Source of the DNA: Sedimenticola thiotaurini
GTDB lineage: Bacteria; Pseudomonadota; Gammaproteobacteria; Chromatiales; Chromatiaceae
Length of the DNA: 64,000 bases
NCBI RefSeq assembly: GCF_001007875.1
Contig: NZ_CP011412.1
Coordinates: 186,001-250,000, forward strand
Direction of reading: 5' to 3'
Part shown: positions 19,594-23,704 of the stretch, one piece after another
Layout of the letters: each line of letters starts with the position of its first letter
Numbering within the stretch: position 1 is the first letter of the stretch
Notes under the pieces: model-generated
The model's database searches: none
What the model was told of the DNA's origin: nothing
The model's input: only the letters and a program-made list of their open reading frames with translations
Translations under genes and position numbers: made by a program

Positions 19594-20370
19594 TCAGTCG
19601 TTGGTATGGGGATGGCTGTGTCCGGGAACGGTGTCATCGTGTTCATGTCCGGCATCCAGGCCGCTGGCGTGGATATGCAGATGGGAATGGGTATGCACAT
19701 GGGGGTGGCTGTGTATCACCCCCTCGCTCAGGGTGCCGTCCTTGATCACCACCGCACGGGTGGCCAACCGTTCCACCAGTCTGCGGTCGTGGGAGACAAA
19801 CAGCATCGCCTGGGGCAGCGACTCCAGGTGTTCCAGCAGGCGCTGTTCGGCCTTCTCATCCAGCCCGTTGGTCGGTTCATCCATCAACAGCACCTGGGGT
19901 TGCATGGCCAGCACAGTGGCCAGCGCAACCATCCGTTTTTCCCCGCCGGAGAGTTTGTAGGTGATGCGGTCGGCATAGTGGGCGAGACCCAGGGAGTCCA
20001 GCACCTGTCTTCCTATCACCTCCGCTTCGGTCCCGGTTTTGCCCAGGTTACGTGGCCCGAAAACCACATCCTCCAGCACAGTCGGGCAGAACAGCTGGTC
20101 ATCCGCATCCTGGAACAGCAGCCCGGCCCGGGCCCGGACTTCCCGGAAATCCGCCTCGCTGTGACGCTCCCGGCCGAAGGCGTGGATCGTTCCCTGGGTG
20201 GGTTTGTGCAACCCCACCATCAGTTGCAGCAGGGTGGTCTTGCCGGCACCGTTCCCCCCCAGCAGGGCGACCCGCTCACCGGCGTGCAGGTGGAAATCAA
20301 TCCCGGACAGTACCGGGTGTCCCGGGTAGCCAAAGGCGATGTCCTGCAACCGGATCAGGGCTTCATTCAT
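19594..20370 (-). CDS. nikO: Nickel ECF/ABC transporter ATPase NikO with His-rich tail
   Basis: A 258-aa ATPase of the CbiO/NikO family. Walker A is GGNGAGKT (38-45), the signature LSGGEKR, Walker B VLLMDEP, and the switch His is in MLFVSHDRR. The last about 45 residues are an unusual His-rich tail with repeats such as HSHPHVHTHSH, likely binding Ni2+ in the cytoplasm. The start at 20370 overlaps the nikQ stop by 4 bp (ATGA); the longer frame to 20493 lies inside nikQ and is rejected. It is the last gene of the nikKMLQO operon and powers Ni2+ uptake together with NikQ and NikM. Confidence 0.95.
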   Translation of the reverse strand: MNEALIRLQDIAFGYPGHPVLSGIDFHLHAGERVALLGGNGAGKTTLLQLMVGLHKPTQGTIHAFGRERHSEADFREVRARAGLLFQDADDQLFCPTVLEDVVFGPRNLGKTGTEAEVIGRQVLDSLGLAHYADRITYKLSGGEKRMVALATVLAMQPQVLLMDEPTNGLDEKAEQRLLEHLESLPQAMLFVSHDRRLVERLATRAVVIKDGTLSEGVIHSHPHVHTHSHLHIHASGLDAGHEHDDTVPGHSHPHTND

Positions 20371-21128
20371 AGGATCTGCTCCAGCAGCAGTAGTGTACCG
20401 GCGACTCCCAGTACCAGCAGCAGCGCCAGGGAGTCGTGGCGACCCCAGAGCGTCTGTCTGGCCAGGTAGAAGCGGCCATTGAAACCGCGGCATTTCATGG
20501 CCGCCAGGATGCGTTCGGAACGTTTCAGGCTGCGTAGCAGCAACATTCCCACCAGCCAGCCGAAGGTCTGCCAGGTGTGTCGGTTGCTGCCGGCCACAAA
20601 GGCGCGCGCCCGCATGGCTAGCCGCAGGCGCCGGTACTCTTCAAACAGGACGCCGATATAGCGCACGGTAAACAGGAACAGGTGGATCAGCTTGTCCGGT
20701 AAGCGCAACTGGCCCAGAGCGTGGCCCAGCACCACCGGTTCCAGGGTGCCCACCAGGGCCATCAGCAGGATCACGATGGTATTGGCCTTGAGTACGATCC
20801 CCAGTGCCCGCTGCAGCCCCTCCACACTGGCGCTGAACGGTCCCAGGCTGATCAGGCTCTCTCCGGGGATGGAGAAGGGCAGCATCACCAGCAGCAGGAT
20901 CATGAATCCCTCCATAGCCAGCAGCCGTTTACCCAGTGAGGCACCCCCCAGCCCGATCCACCAGGCCGCAGCCAGGCTCAGTAGCAGGCTGGGCAGTAAC
21001 AGGGAGATCCGTTCCAGGGAGACCAGGGTCAGGGCCATCAGCAGGGCGCTGATCACCCGCAGGCGGGGATCGAAACGGGCCAGCCGGTTGTGGCGGGATG
21101 CCTCGTCAATCAGAGCCAGCTGCATCAT
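20367..21128 (-). CDS. nikQ: Nickel transporter transmembrane T component NikQ
   Basis: A CbiQ-family T component (253 aa) of a group I energy-coupling-factor transporter. About five hydrophobic segments lead to the conserved cytoplasmic coupling helices, with the Ala-Arg-Gly-like signatures LAMRARAF and ILAAMKCRGFNG. The N-terminal LIDEASRHNRLARFDPRLRV is typical of CbiQ. The double ATG at 21128 overlaps the nikL stop. It links the S unit NikM to the ATPase NikO in the inner membrane. Confidence 0.93.
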   Translation of the reverse strand: MMQLALIDEASRHNRLARFDPRLRVISALLMALTLVSLERISLLLPSLLLSLAAAWWIGLGGASLGKRLLAMEGFMILLLVMLPFSIPGESLISLGPFSASVEGLQRALGIVLKANTIVILLMALVGTLEPVVLGHALGQLRLPDKLIHLFLFTVRYIGVLFEEYRRLRLAMRARAFVAGSNRHTWQTFGWLVGMLLLRSLKRSERILAAMKCRGFNGRFYLARQTLWGRHDSLALLLVLGVAGTLLLLEQIL

Positions 21129-21703
21129 CGGTCGGGGGCTCCCCGCCTGGCGCGCCACCAGAGAGCCACCCCGGCCAGACCAAAGATGAAACCGATGCCG
21201 CCCAGGATGTCGCTCAGCCGGGCCCGATCATCACTGCGCTGCAACTGTTCACGCAGGGGGCCGATCTGCCGGGCCACGGCCTGCTCGATCAATCTGGCCA
21301 ATTGTGTATCGGGCGGAGTGACGGAACCAGACTGTGGCGCGGGGCTGTGATCGGTCGCTGCCGGTGGTGTGACTGAGCTGACCGGTGCGGGGGCAAACTC
21401 GCTGGAATGGATCTGCCACTCGGCCTGATGCCCCTCGCCGGTGTTGACCCGCAGCCGGTATTCCCCGGCGCTGGTCACCGGGTAGCTGAAGGTCCCCCGG
21501 GGGTCGGTCCTCAGTTCCGCCACTGTTTGGTTATCGGCATCGCTGATGGTGACCAGAGCGTCCGCCACGCCGGCACCACCGGCGAAGTAGGCGCTGCCGT
21601 GGATACGATCGCCCTCAACATAGGCAAACAGTTTCAGCAGGTGGGCCTCGGCCACGCCGTTACAGAGCAGCAGGAACGGGATAATCAGGCACAGACGCGA
21701 CAT
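21125..21703 (-). CDS. nikL: Nickel transporter accessory protein NikL
   Basis: A 192-aa protein with signal peptide (LIIPFLLLCNGVAEA), a carboxypeptidase-regulatory-like beta domain (about 20-100, VEGDRIHGSAYFAGG and PRGTFSYPVTSAGEYRL), a Pro-rich linker, a short coiled segment and one C-terminal transmembrane helix (ILGGIGFIFGLAGVALWW). This layout, with a mature N-terminus beginning at His-Leu, is that of NikL, the auxiliary membrane protein that replaces NikN in some nickel ECF systems. It sits between nikM (4-nt gap) and nikQ (4-bp overlap). Confidence 0.85.
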   Translation of the reverse strand: MSRLCLIIPFLLLCNGVAEAHLLKLFAYVEGDRIHGSAYFAGGAGVADALVTISDADNQTVAELRTDPRGTFSYPVTSAGEYRLRVNTGEGHQAEWQIHSSEFAPAPVSSVTPPAATDHSPAPQSGSVTPPDTQLARLIEQAVARQIGPLREQLQRSDDRARLSDILGGIGFIFGLAGVALWWRARRGAPDR

Positions 21704-21707
21704 CGGG

Positions 21708-22316
21708 TTACTCCCGTACAGTGATCAGTTCCGGCGCCACCCGGAGTATGAAACCGAGGGCGAAGCCGGTGACGGCGGCCTCGCCAATGATCAGTGGTGC
21801 ATAGGTGGCCAGCACCAGTCTGGCCGCCGGTAAAAATTCGCTGCTGCTCAGGCCGAGACTGAAGCTTACCATCAGAGCGGTCAGCAGCACCCCCAGGGCG
21901 CCACCGAGACCACCCCAGAACAGCGTGGCCCTGCCGCTGGAACGGCGCAGTACCGGGCCGATCAGTGCCGCGCAAAGCAGCGCCGGCAGGGCGATATTCA
22001 GGGTGTTGACCCCCAGCACCAGCAGCCCCCCGTAGCCGAAAAAGACCGCCTGCATGATCAGGGCGACAAAAATGGCGGGTACTGCCGCCCAACCCAGGAT
22101 CAATCCCATCAGCCCGTTCAGAATCAGGTGAACACTGCTGGGCCCGACCGGTATGGAGACCAGGGAGGCGACAAAGAAGGCGGCCGAGAGTACCGCCGCC
22201 TGGGGTATCCGGTCGTAGTCGAGTCGCCGGATCGCCACCGCCAACAGGCCGGCGGTGGCAACGGCGCCGGTGATCAGTATGGGGCTGGAGAGCACCCCGT
22301 CAGGGATATGGGCGAT
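21708..22316 (-). CDS. nikM: Nickel-specific substrate-binding membrane protein NikM, probable AUC start
   Basis: The CbiM/NikM-family S component, 202 aa with about seven transmembrane helices; VGPSSVHLILNGLMGLILG carries the conserved internal His. In this family the N-terminus (Met/Ala-His-Ile-Pro-Asp/Glu-Gly) itself ligates Ni2+. Here those residues (AHIPDGVLSSP) are encoded, but no ATG, GTG or TTG precedes them. A strong AAGGAG (22325-22330) sits 8 nt before an ATC codon at 22316-22314, giving M-A-H-I-P-D-G. Starting at the first regular codon (GTG, 22295) would remove the metal-binding His. The ATC start is inference; a sequencing error at that base is the alternative. Confidence 0.88.
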   Translation of the reverse strand: MAHIPDGVLSSPILITGAVATAGLLAVAIRRLDYDRIPQAAVLSAAFFVASLVSIPVGPSSVHLILNGLMGLILGWAAVPAIFVALIMQAVFFGYGGLLVLGVNTLNIALPALLCAALIGPVLRRSSGRATLFWGGLGGALGVLLTALMVSFSLGLSSSEFLPAARLVLATYAPLIIGEAAVTGFALGFILRVAPELITVRE

Positions 22317-22332
22317 TGTGGTGGCTCCTTGG

Positions 22333-23106
22333 CTATGGCATGTCCCGGGTAAATACCCAGATCAGTGCCCCCTGTTCCACCGGAACCGCTTCACCGGCGG
22401 GATTGTTCATCTTCTCCGGCCCTTCCAGCAGCGCGGCGAATCCCCACCAGCCGGCCCGGGGCATGACATAGCTGAAGGTGCCGTTGGCATCCGCCTTGAT
22501 CACCTGGGTGACATACGCGTCTGCCGGCGGCGTCACGCTGCCGTCATTCAGCCACTCAACCTCCACCTCTGCAAAGGGCACCGGCTGACCATTTTGCTGC
22601 ACTACGCCCCGGAACTGGTTGCCGGTCCAGAGCCCGAAAGGACGGGTCAGAGGCTCGATCTCCACCGGAAATCCCACCGACCTGTCCCAGCCGGTTTCCG
22701 CGGCGAAGGCATCCACCACCACTTTGGTGTAGTGCTCGATCATCACCCCCTCGGCCGGCTCCCAGTAAGGGGCGGGTTGCAGGTAGAACAGGTAATCGCC
22801 GGGCCGGTTAAAGCGGAAATCGGCCCGGTAGGCAGTGGCACCGGCTACCTGATAGGGGGTGAGTGCGTCACGCAGATCCTGGTGGCCATCGGGTCCCAAC
22901 ACCCCGAACTGTACCGGTTCCCCCATCGCCATGGCCGGGCCCCGGGACATGGGATGGGTGAAACGCATATCCAGTTGTATGCTCCGCGGCGTTGCCTCAT
23001 GGATCAGATCATGGGACGGGATCAGGGTCTGGAAGTGGGCGGCGGCAAACGACGGGAAGAGGACGACAATGGCCGGAATCAGGCAGGGGGCAAACCGTTT
23101 AAACAT
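22333..23106 (-). CDS. nikK: Periplasmic nickel-binding DUF4198 protein NikK
   Basis: A 257-aa exported protein with signal peptide ([15 protein letters not shown]) followed at once by His-Phe, the mature start usual for NikK/DUF4198 proteins. The body is beta-rich and carries His and Met residues ([24 protein letters not shown]) that may bind metal. As the first gene of the transport operon behind the NikR-type operator it probably supplies Ni2+ to NikM/NikL in the periplasm. Its stop lies 16 nt before the proposed nikM start. Confidence 0.88.
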
Positions 23107-23170
23107 GGGCGAACTCCAGAGGTGAAAGCGGTCGGGGGTTCCTACCGCGTACCGGGGGAAGATTAAGAAA

Positions 23171-23195
23171 TATTACAAAAAAATAATTTGTAATA
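23171..23195. promoter_or_regulatory. Predicted NikR operator upstream of nikK
   Basis: TATTACA (23171-23177) and TGTAATA (23189-23195) form a perfect 7-bp inverted repeat separated by 11 nt. It lies in a very AT-rich patch between the nikR stop and the nikK start. NikR binds widely spaced dyads of this kind in several proteobacteria. Repression of nikKMLQO at high nickel is the expected outcome. Confidence 0.75.
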
Positions 23196-23236
23196 CAAAC
23201 GTCGACGCCCGGCCGGTGTCGGGTTGGTTTGCCGCT

Positions 23237-23704
23237 TCAGGTCTGGGGGTGGGTGTGACTGTGTTTCTGGGCACCGCTGCCGTGGTGGTGGTGCTCCTGA
23301 TGTACCTCCACCGGGATCAGGTTGAGCCTGCCGTGTCGTACTCCGGGCTGGGTGATGACGGCGTTGGCGAACGCCTCCACCTGGCGGGTGGGGCCGTTCA
23401 CCACCACGGTCTCCAGGCAGTTCTCATGATCCAGGTGGACGTGCAGAGTGGAGACCGAAACATCGTGATGGTGGTGGTGGGCATGGGTCAGGCGCCGGGC
23501 CAGCTCCCGCTCCTCGTGGTTGAACACGTAGCTGAGGGTACCGACGCAGTGGCTGGAGTCGGTCTGTTCCATGCGATCCGCCTCCAGGGTATCGCGGATC
23601 ATATCCCGGATCGCCTCCGAGCGGTTCCTGTAGTTACGCCGTTTCAGATACTCCTCGAACTGGCTGATCAGTTCATCATCCAGGGAGATGGTGATACGTT
23701 CCAT
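23237..23704 (-). CDS. nikR: Nickel-responsive repressor NikR with His-rich C-terminal tail
   Basis: A ribbon-helix-helix plus ACT-domain regulator, 155 aa. The RHH part is MERITISLDDELISQFEEYL with NRSEAIRDMIR. The high-affinity nickel site is present: H88 and H90 in STLHVHLDHENCLE, C96, and a His from the HAHHHHH run (75-80) of the partner subunit. The E. coli protein ends near PGVRHGHL...P. Here about 22 extra residues (EHHHHGSGAQKHSHTH) add a second His cluster. It is transcribed upstream of, and in the same direction as, nikK, with the operator in between. Confidence 0.96.
   Translation of the reverse strand: MERITISLDDELISQFEEYLKRRNYRNRSEAIRDMIRDTLEADRMEQTDSSHCVGTLSYVFNHEERELARRLTHAHHHHHDVSVSTLHVHLDHENCLETVVVNGPTRQVEAFANAVITQPGVRHGRLNLIPVEVHQEHHHHGSGAQKHSHTHPQT

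Follow-up and report, generated by a model that had tools for sequence, protein, structure and literature searches.

Evidence for a conserved AUC start codon with a strong Shine-Dalgarno sequence at nikM of Sedimenticola thiotaurini and related bacteria

Introduction

To our knowledge, natural AUC starts have rarely been documented in bacteria. The closest described systems are infC, the gene for initiation factor 3 (IF3), whose near-cognate starts of the AUU/AUA/AUC type are conserved among relatives, and the Staphylococcus genes ccpN (AUA) and cvfC1 (AUU), for which conserved non-canonical starts with a strong, extended Shine-Dalgarno (SD) sequence were shown by Ribo-Ret and reporters in the available text of PMC13009471. 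The same text has a strong SD offsetting AUU/AUA starts in S. aureus and, together with the accessible part of PMC9845219, describes infC as autoregulated by its own product. According to the available portion of PMC10158994, IF3 disfavours weak third-base pairs; AUC appears there with other anticodons and not as the AUC/CAU pair.

NikM and CbiM are S components of group I ECF transporters. The NikM metal site requires an unblocked N-terminal amino group and a His as second residue, and an initial Met is readily removed when Ala follows it. The first two residues of NikM take part in metal binding (accessible text of PMC6828968), and nikKMLQO is an operon arrangement given in the available parts of PMC545781 and PMC2667541.

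Here we describe a nikM gene that appears to begin with AUC, located in a 64,000 nt stretch of the Sedimenticola thiotaurini genome (contig NZ_CP011412.1, positions 186,001-250,000; hereafter the window). It shares with the known S components the protein family, the operon type and the N-terminal His, but differs from them in its start codon and in having Ala before the His instead of a Met-His start. As for infC, the near-cognate start is conserved among relatives, but NikM, a membrane transporter, is unconnected with initiation. The combination of a conserved non-canonical start and a strong SD is likewise that of ccpN and cvfC1, whereas those genes use other codons, belong to another phylum and encode no transporter, and their starts were established experimentally.

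Results

The nikM start site in the window

Read on the minus strand, the site consists of AAGGAG (22330-22325), the 8 nt spacer CCACCACA and ATC (22316-22314), 3' of which the codons GCC CAT ATC CCT GAC GGG GTG (the last at 22295-22293) specify A-H-I-P-D-G-V (Table 1). Upstream, the frame ends at TGA (22364-22362), and the 15 codons between this stop and the ATC include no ATG, GTG, TTG or CTG; the nikK stop, TAG (22335-22333), lies in another frame. An earlier note on this DNA had stated that the A-H-I-P-D-G codons precede the first regular start (GTG 22295), that no ATG, GTG or TTG is found in frame before the nikK stop, and that AAGGAG stands exactly 8 nt before it, all of which our reading of the minus strand bears out. 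Its further expectation, that the metal site would be lost to ordinary gene callers, holds for mechanical ORF calling, which opens nikM at GTG 22295 and thereby drops AHIPDG. The string AAGGAG-N8-ATCGCCCAT had one exact occurrence in the window and none in 100 shuffles; conservation is the better measure of chance, a near-cognate codon with a strong SD being found at the corresponding position of 14 other loci.

Table 1. Features of the nikM locus, with positions counted along the window
Feature	Coordinates	Strand	Evidence or remark
nikM (CbiM/NikM S component), 202 aa from ATC, stop included	21708..22316	-	Pfam PF01891, E 1.7e-54
ATC, proposed nikM start codon (AUC in mRNA)	22314..22316	-	ATC also at the aligned codon of 13 other loci; ATA in 1 more
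Shine-Dalgarno AAGGAG, 8 nt 5' of ATC	22325..22330	-	anti-SD duplex energy -7.7 kcal/mol
TGA, in-frame stop bounding the nikM frame upstream	22362..22364	-	sequence reading
GTG, first ordinary in-frame start; rejected as true start	22293..22295	-	removes AHIPDG; GTA in at least 4 other ATC genomes
nikK (DUF4198), directly upstream of nikM; stop 16 nt before ATC, different frame	22333..23106	-	PF10670, E 2.1e-60
nikL-like gene, 192 aa, carboxypeptidase-regulatory-like domain	21125..21703	-	name after PMC545781
nikQ (CbiQ, T component); start approximate	20367..21158	-	PF02361, E 2.7e-28
nikO (ABC ATPase); start approximate	19594..20493	-	PF00005, E 1.8e-31
nikR, nickel-responsive repressor	23237..23704	-	PF08753, E 3.1e-29, and PF01402
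Putative NikR box GTATTAC-N13-GTAATAT upstream of nikK	23170..23196	-	0.03 expected; resembles PMC545781 signal

Identity of the protein and its operon

Residues 3-197 of the NikM protein matched positions 1-205 of the 205-position PF01891 profile with 185 bits (cut-off 23.1). Against the solved NikM structures PDB 4m58 and 4m5b, residues 3-162 aligned with chain positions 2-166 (E about 1e-10), such that H3, which follows I1-A2, falls on His2 of the solved chains. The T and A components and the accessory K and L genes of a NikM/CbiM operon are all present around it. Nickel is the likely substrate, as indicated by the NikR gene and the putative NikR box nearby. Palindromes like this box are also found in the loci of genus relatives.

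Recurrence of the near-cognate start

Of the 210 genomes in the family survey, 69 contained a match with an E-value of 1e-30 or below, yielding 75 loci, all of which were examined; an order-level search covered 210 genomes, the same number as the family search. The 75 loci divided into 54 of AHIP type (start residue, then Ala-His) and 21 of MH type, all 21 with M before the His. At the aligned start codon the AHIP-type loci carried ATG (34), ATC (9), TTG (8) or GTG (3), the nine ATC loci being L001 and L003-L006 (window's genus), L008, L010, L013 and L062. Within the window's genus, five of seven AHIP-type loci thus have ATC. The other two (L002 and L007) use ATG and retain an SD, and as such AUC is not required. 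At L011 (genome G038), a TTG start directly follows an in-frame ATC codon, and the start position there is possibly shifted.

We also scanned GTDB r220 contigs for ATA, ATC or ATT before A-H-I-P-[D/E]-G-V-[L/F], which returned 14 stretches, 11 of them nikM (10 ATC, 1 ATA, 0 ATT). The remaining three (L086, L087 and L090) were chance matches in other, unrelated proteins and were discarded. Six of the nikM matches duplicate family loci, including those of Sedimenticola hydrogenitrophicus, S. selenatireducens, S. thiotaurini BK-3, Sedimenticola sp. BM503 and Thiococcus pfennigii; the others come from new lineages, namely MAGs with the labels Thioalkalivibrio paradoxus, Thiotrichales, Alphaproteobacteria, Aestuariirhabdus (ATA) and Chromatiales. 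The Aestuariirhabdus gene (L095:4359), with AAGGAG 8 nt upstream of its ATA, has the only non-ATC near-cognate start seen. Additionally, an even draw of 369 class genomes gave 19 with a match at 1e-40; among 17 class loci, 16 were of MH or VH type (14 M, two GTG), and the sole AHIP-type locus seen outside the family, L098, has ATC.

Beyond the family, six loci therefore have a near-cognate start: L084, L085, L089, L096 and L098 (ATC) and L095 (ATA). In total, a codon other than ATG, GTG or TTG occupies the aligned start in several species, in 15 of 60 AHIP-type NikM loci (ATC 14, ATA 1). This set of 60 is separate from the 21 MH-type family loci, the 16 MH- or VH-type class loci, and L020 and L023-L029, which fall outside the start survey; L131 (a copy of L085) and L088, L091-L094 and L097 (copies of other loci) were removed as duplicates. 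A pattern search of 20 genomes around G455 had two matches, G455 itself (already known) and G062 (L124), and a plasmid search found no relative. A comparison of window ORFs with the genus loci, made to detect further N-terminal extensions, returned for the most part shadow frames of real genes and yielded no usable case.

These counts bear on a single-base sequencing or assembly error, with ATG as the true codon, which the earlier note had offered as an alternative. The ATC is one base from ATG, and L002 and L007 carry ATG at that very place. The note's suggested check of the codon in related genomes, however, found ATC at the same place in nine of 54 family AHIP-type genes and in further loci, that is, in isolates and MAGs that were sequenced separately and span several genera and families, and always with a strong SD. 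As the codon is conserved in independently sequenced genomes, we reject such an error, which is highly improbable.

Alternative starts and translational fusion

In 13 of the 15 near-cognate loci, no ATG, GTG or TTG lies between the in-frame stop and the near-cognate codon; the exceptions are L013, with a single GTG 11 codons before its ATC, and L098, with GTGs 14 and 43 codons before. Downstream, the nikM frame of the window offers its first ordinary start at GTG 22295, from which, or from a later ordinary start, NikM might begin without AHIPDG. Against this, L003-L006 have GTA at that residue, and among the 15 loci the next ordinary start falls at positions between residues 7 and 28; therefore, a shorter NikM is not a conserved alternative. 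Moreover, A-H-I-P-D-G is identical in 15 of 15, its His aligns with His2 of the solved chains, and the SD is spaced for the ATC, all of which leave a downstream start very unlikely.

A start codon would be unnecessary altogether if NikM were made as a NikK-NikM fusion through stop read-through or frameshifting, and nikK does lie 4-124 nt upstream of nikM in 14 of the 15 near-cognate loci. Among those 14, however, the nikK stop codons are spread over all three frames with respect to nikM, an argument against a conserved fusion, whilst L062 is without a detectable nikK, and an N-terminal fusion would presumably deprive the metal site of its free amino end. Fusion thus has hardly any likelihood.

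For nikM, dN/dS was 0.10-0.23 in the 10 pairs tested, and the NikM proteins are under purifying selection; dS reached 1.8 within the genus, with synonymous sites near saturation. The preference for ATC over ATT and ATA was mildly above the Ile codon use of these genes (P 0.034, with rows treated as independent). Predicted mRNA folding around the start did not differ (p 0.38).

Strength of the Shine-Dalgarno sequence

All 15 near-cognate loci have an SD match of at least 4 nt ending 7-9 nt before the codon, compared with 10 of 34 ATG loci even when every spacing is allowed. Median SD pairing energies were -8.6 kcal/mol for near-cognate (ATC/ATA) starts, -5.1 kcal/mol for GTG/TTG and -4.0 kcal/mol for ATG (n=34), near-cognate loci differing from the rest with a Mann-Whitney p of 7e-8. 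As a control, SDs were calculated for neighbouring genes at all 15 near-cognate loci and 25 of the 45 ordinary ones (208 vs 330 genes), using leftmost starts, such that these values are estimates only. Neighbour-gene medians were alike, whether pooled (-3.6 vs -3.3, p 0.47) or per locus (-3.25 vs -3.3, p 0.61), and because of this similarity the strong nikM SD is not a general property of these genomes. The nikM SD ranked in the top 0-16 % of local genes in 15 of 15 near-cognate loci; in the 25 control loci, mostly a quarter to two thirds of local genes had an SD as strong as that of nikM. Three ATG siblings in the same clade (L043, L044 and L048; genus code g7) combine weak SDs with the lack of a detectable nikK and with nikR directly upstream of nikM.

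Phylogeny of the start codon

In the tree, all 15 near-cognate starts fall, with five ATG starts, in a group of 20 rows (support 85/99), and the codon distribution requires four changes. An independent-pairs test had just two contrasts on supported branches and four on all branches (median p 1), so few that the SD association is not separable from shared ancestry. In a second tree, made by a quick method with an outgroup added and the long branches L062, L089 and L017 dropped, the near-cognate rows sit near the base of the AHIP subfamily and are excluded from a clade formed by 39 ordinary rows (SH-aLRT 96). Given this basal position, a simple reading would be an old AUC with later returns to ATG, a direction that the weak root leaves unproven.

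Initiator tRNA

Cognate initiation on AUC would be conceivable with a dedicated initiator tRNA bearing a GAU anticodon, and the strain's own genome contains two GGGCTGATAACCC matches; ARAGORN, however, places neither of them in a tRNA. An initiator-stem pattern, which finds genes with the searched stem sequence only, had nine matches in this genome, eight of which (all but GGGTTTATCACCC) were checked. Among these eight, ARAGORN called a tRNA at one, tRNA-Met with anticodon CAT, and no unusual initiator tRNA was found. On the matches checked, a dedicated initiator has a vanishingly small probability.

A companion observation at infC

IF3_N was found in six of nine genus genomes (L125-L130), none of which has an ordinary start before RMNDEI. 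In these six Sedimenticola genomes infC reads TGA, GTT or ATT, ATC GCT/GCC GCA CCA AAA. Because the ATC is conserved and no ordinary start precedes RMNDEI, ATC is a likely candidate for the infC start, with ATT possible in one genome, an assignment that is suggestive only. The SD-to-ATC spacing is longer here, 11 nt after GGAGGA. The site is overlapped by an out-of-frame ATG (ATGAGTTATCGC in five of the six).

Discussion

The explanation that we favour, with a probability of about 0.88, is a genuine, long-lived AUC start at nikM, used by the ordinary initiator tRNA with help from a strong SD. The AUC start looks real because the odd start and the strong SD recur together in many related bacteria. 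The strong, well-placed SD would hold the 30S subunit over AUC 22316-22314, upon which ordinary fMet-tRNA (anticodon CAU) could initiate with A and U paired and the third base mismatched. Removal of Met from Met-Ala would then leave the Ala-His N-terminus at which S components of the TtNikM2 type bind metal. The AUC start itself may be old in the AHIP-type NikM subfamily, moving with the nikK-M-L-Q-O operon. The analysis shows the sequence, its recurrence, the strength of the SD, purifying selection on the protein and the lack of other usable starts; initiation at AUC as such, the loss of Met, decoding by the ordinary initiator tRNA and a regulatory role of any sort, be it lower or IF3-sensitive NikM synthesis, are what we infer.

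The earlier note had interpreted the site as AUC initiation that would keep NikM translation low. Conservation supports the first part; the second does not follow, as the AUC codons are paired with unusually strong SDs and net NikM output could therefore be normal. In the available text of PMC9680021, AUC, AUU, AUA and CUG reach 0.1-0.3 % of the AUG level in a single E. coli reporter context, and on that basis NikM expression could be very low; in two clostridia the same codons reach 5-20 % of AUG.

What the AUC start is for admits two readings. It may have drifted and be nearly neutral, with a tiny need for NikM, output kept sufficient by the strong SD, and no regulation. This variant is compatible with the favoured explanation, and we place it a little short of even odds. 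The alternation of AUC with ATG within the clade and the strong SD that accompanies AUC are both in keeping with drift, whilst the persistence of AUC across lineages near synonymous saturation, though one transversion gives ATG, speaks against it. More tentatively, the AUC may be a selected, long-retained translational control element, ancestral in AHIP-type NikM and carried between families with the nik operon. It would set the metal-binding subunit at a low dose, or tie it to IF3 level and growth state, atop transcriptional control by NikR.

No report of an AUC start for NikM/CbiM was found in the open-licence PMC literature, as far as its available text extends. As far as the literature searched shows, the kind of start is already known from infC, ccpN and cvfC1, and it is the codon, the gene and the breadth of occurrence that are new. 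For annotation, callers limited to ATG, GTG and TTG miss AUC starts, and many AHIP-type NikM proteins, although they belong to a well-studied metal transporter, would be annotated without their metal site. Furthermore, 15 near-cognate and 45 ordinary starts within one protein subfamily, with the SD as covariate, constitute a natural experiment on the compensation of a weak start codon by the SD, and the AHIP-type NikM set offers a direct test of near-cognate starts as regulators.
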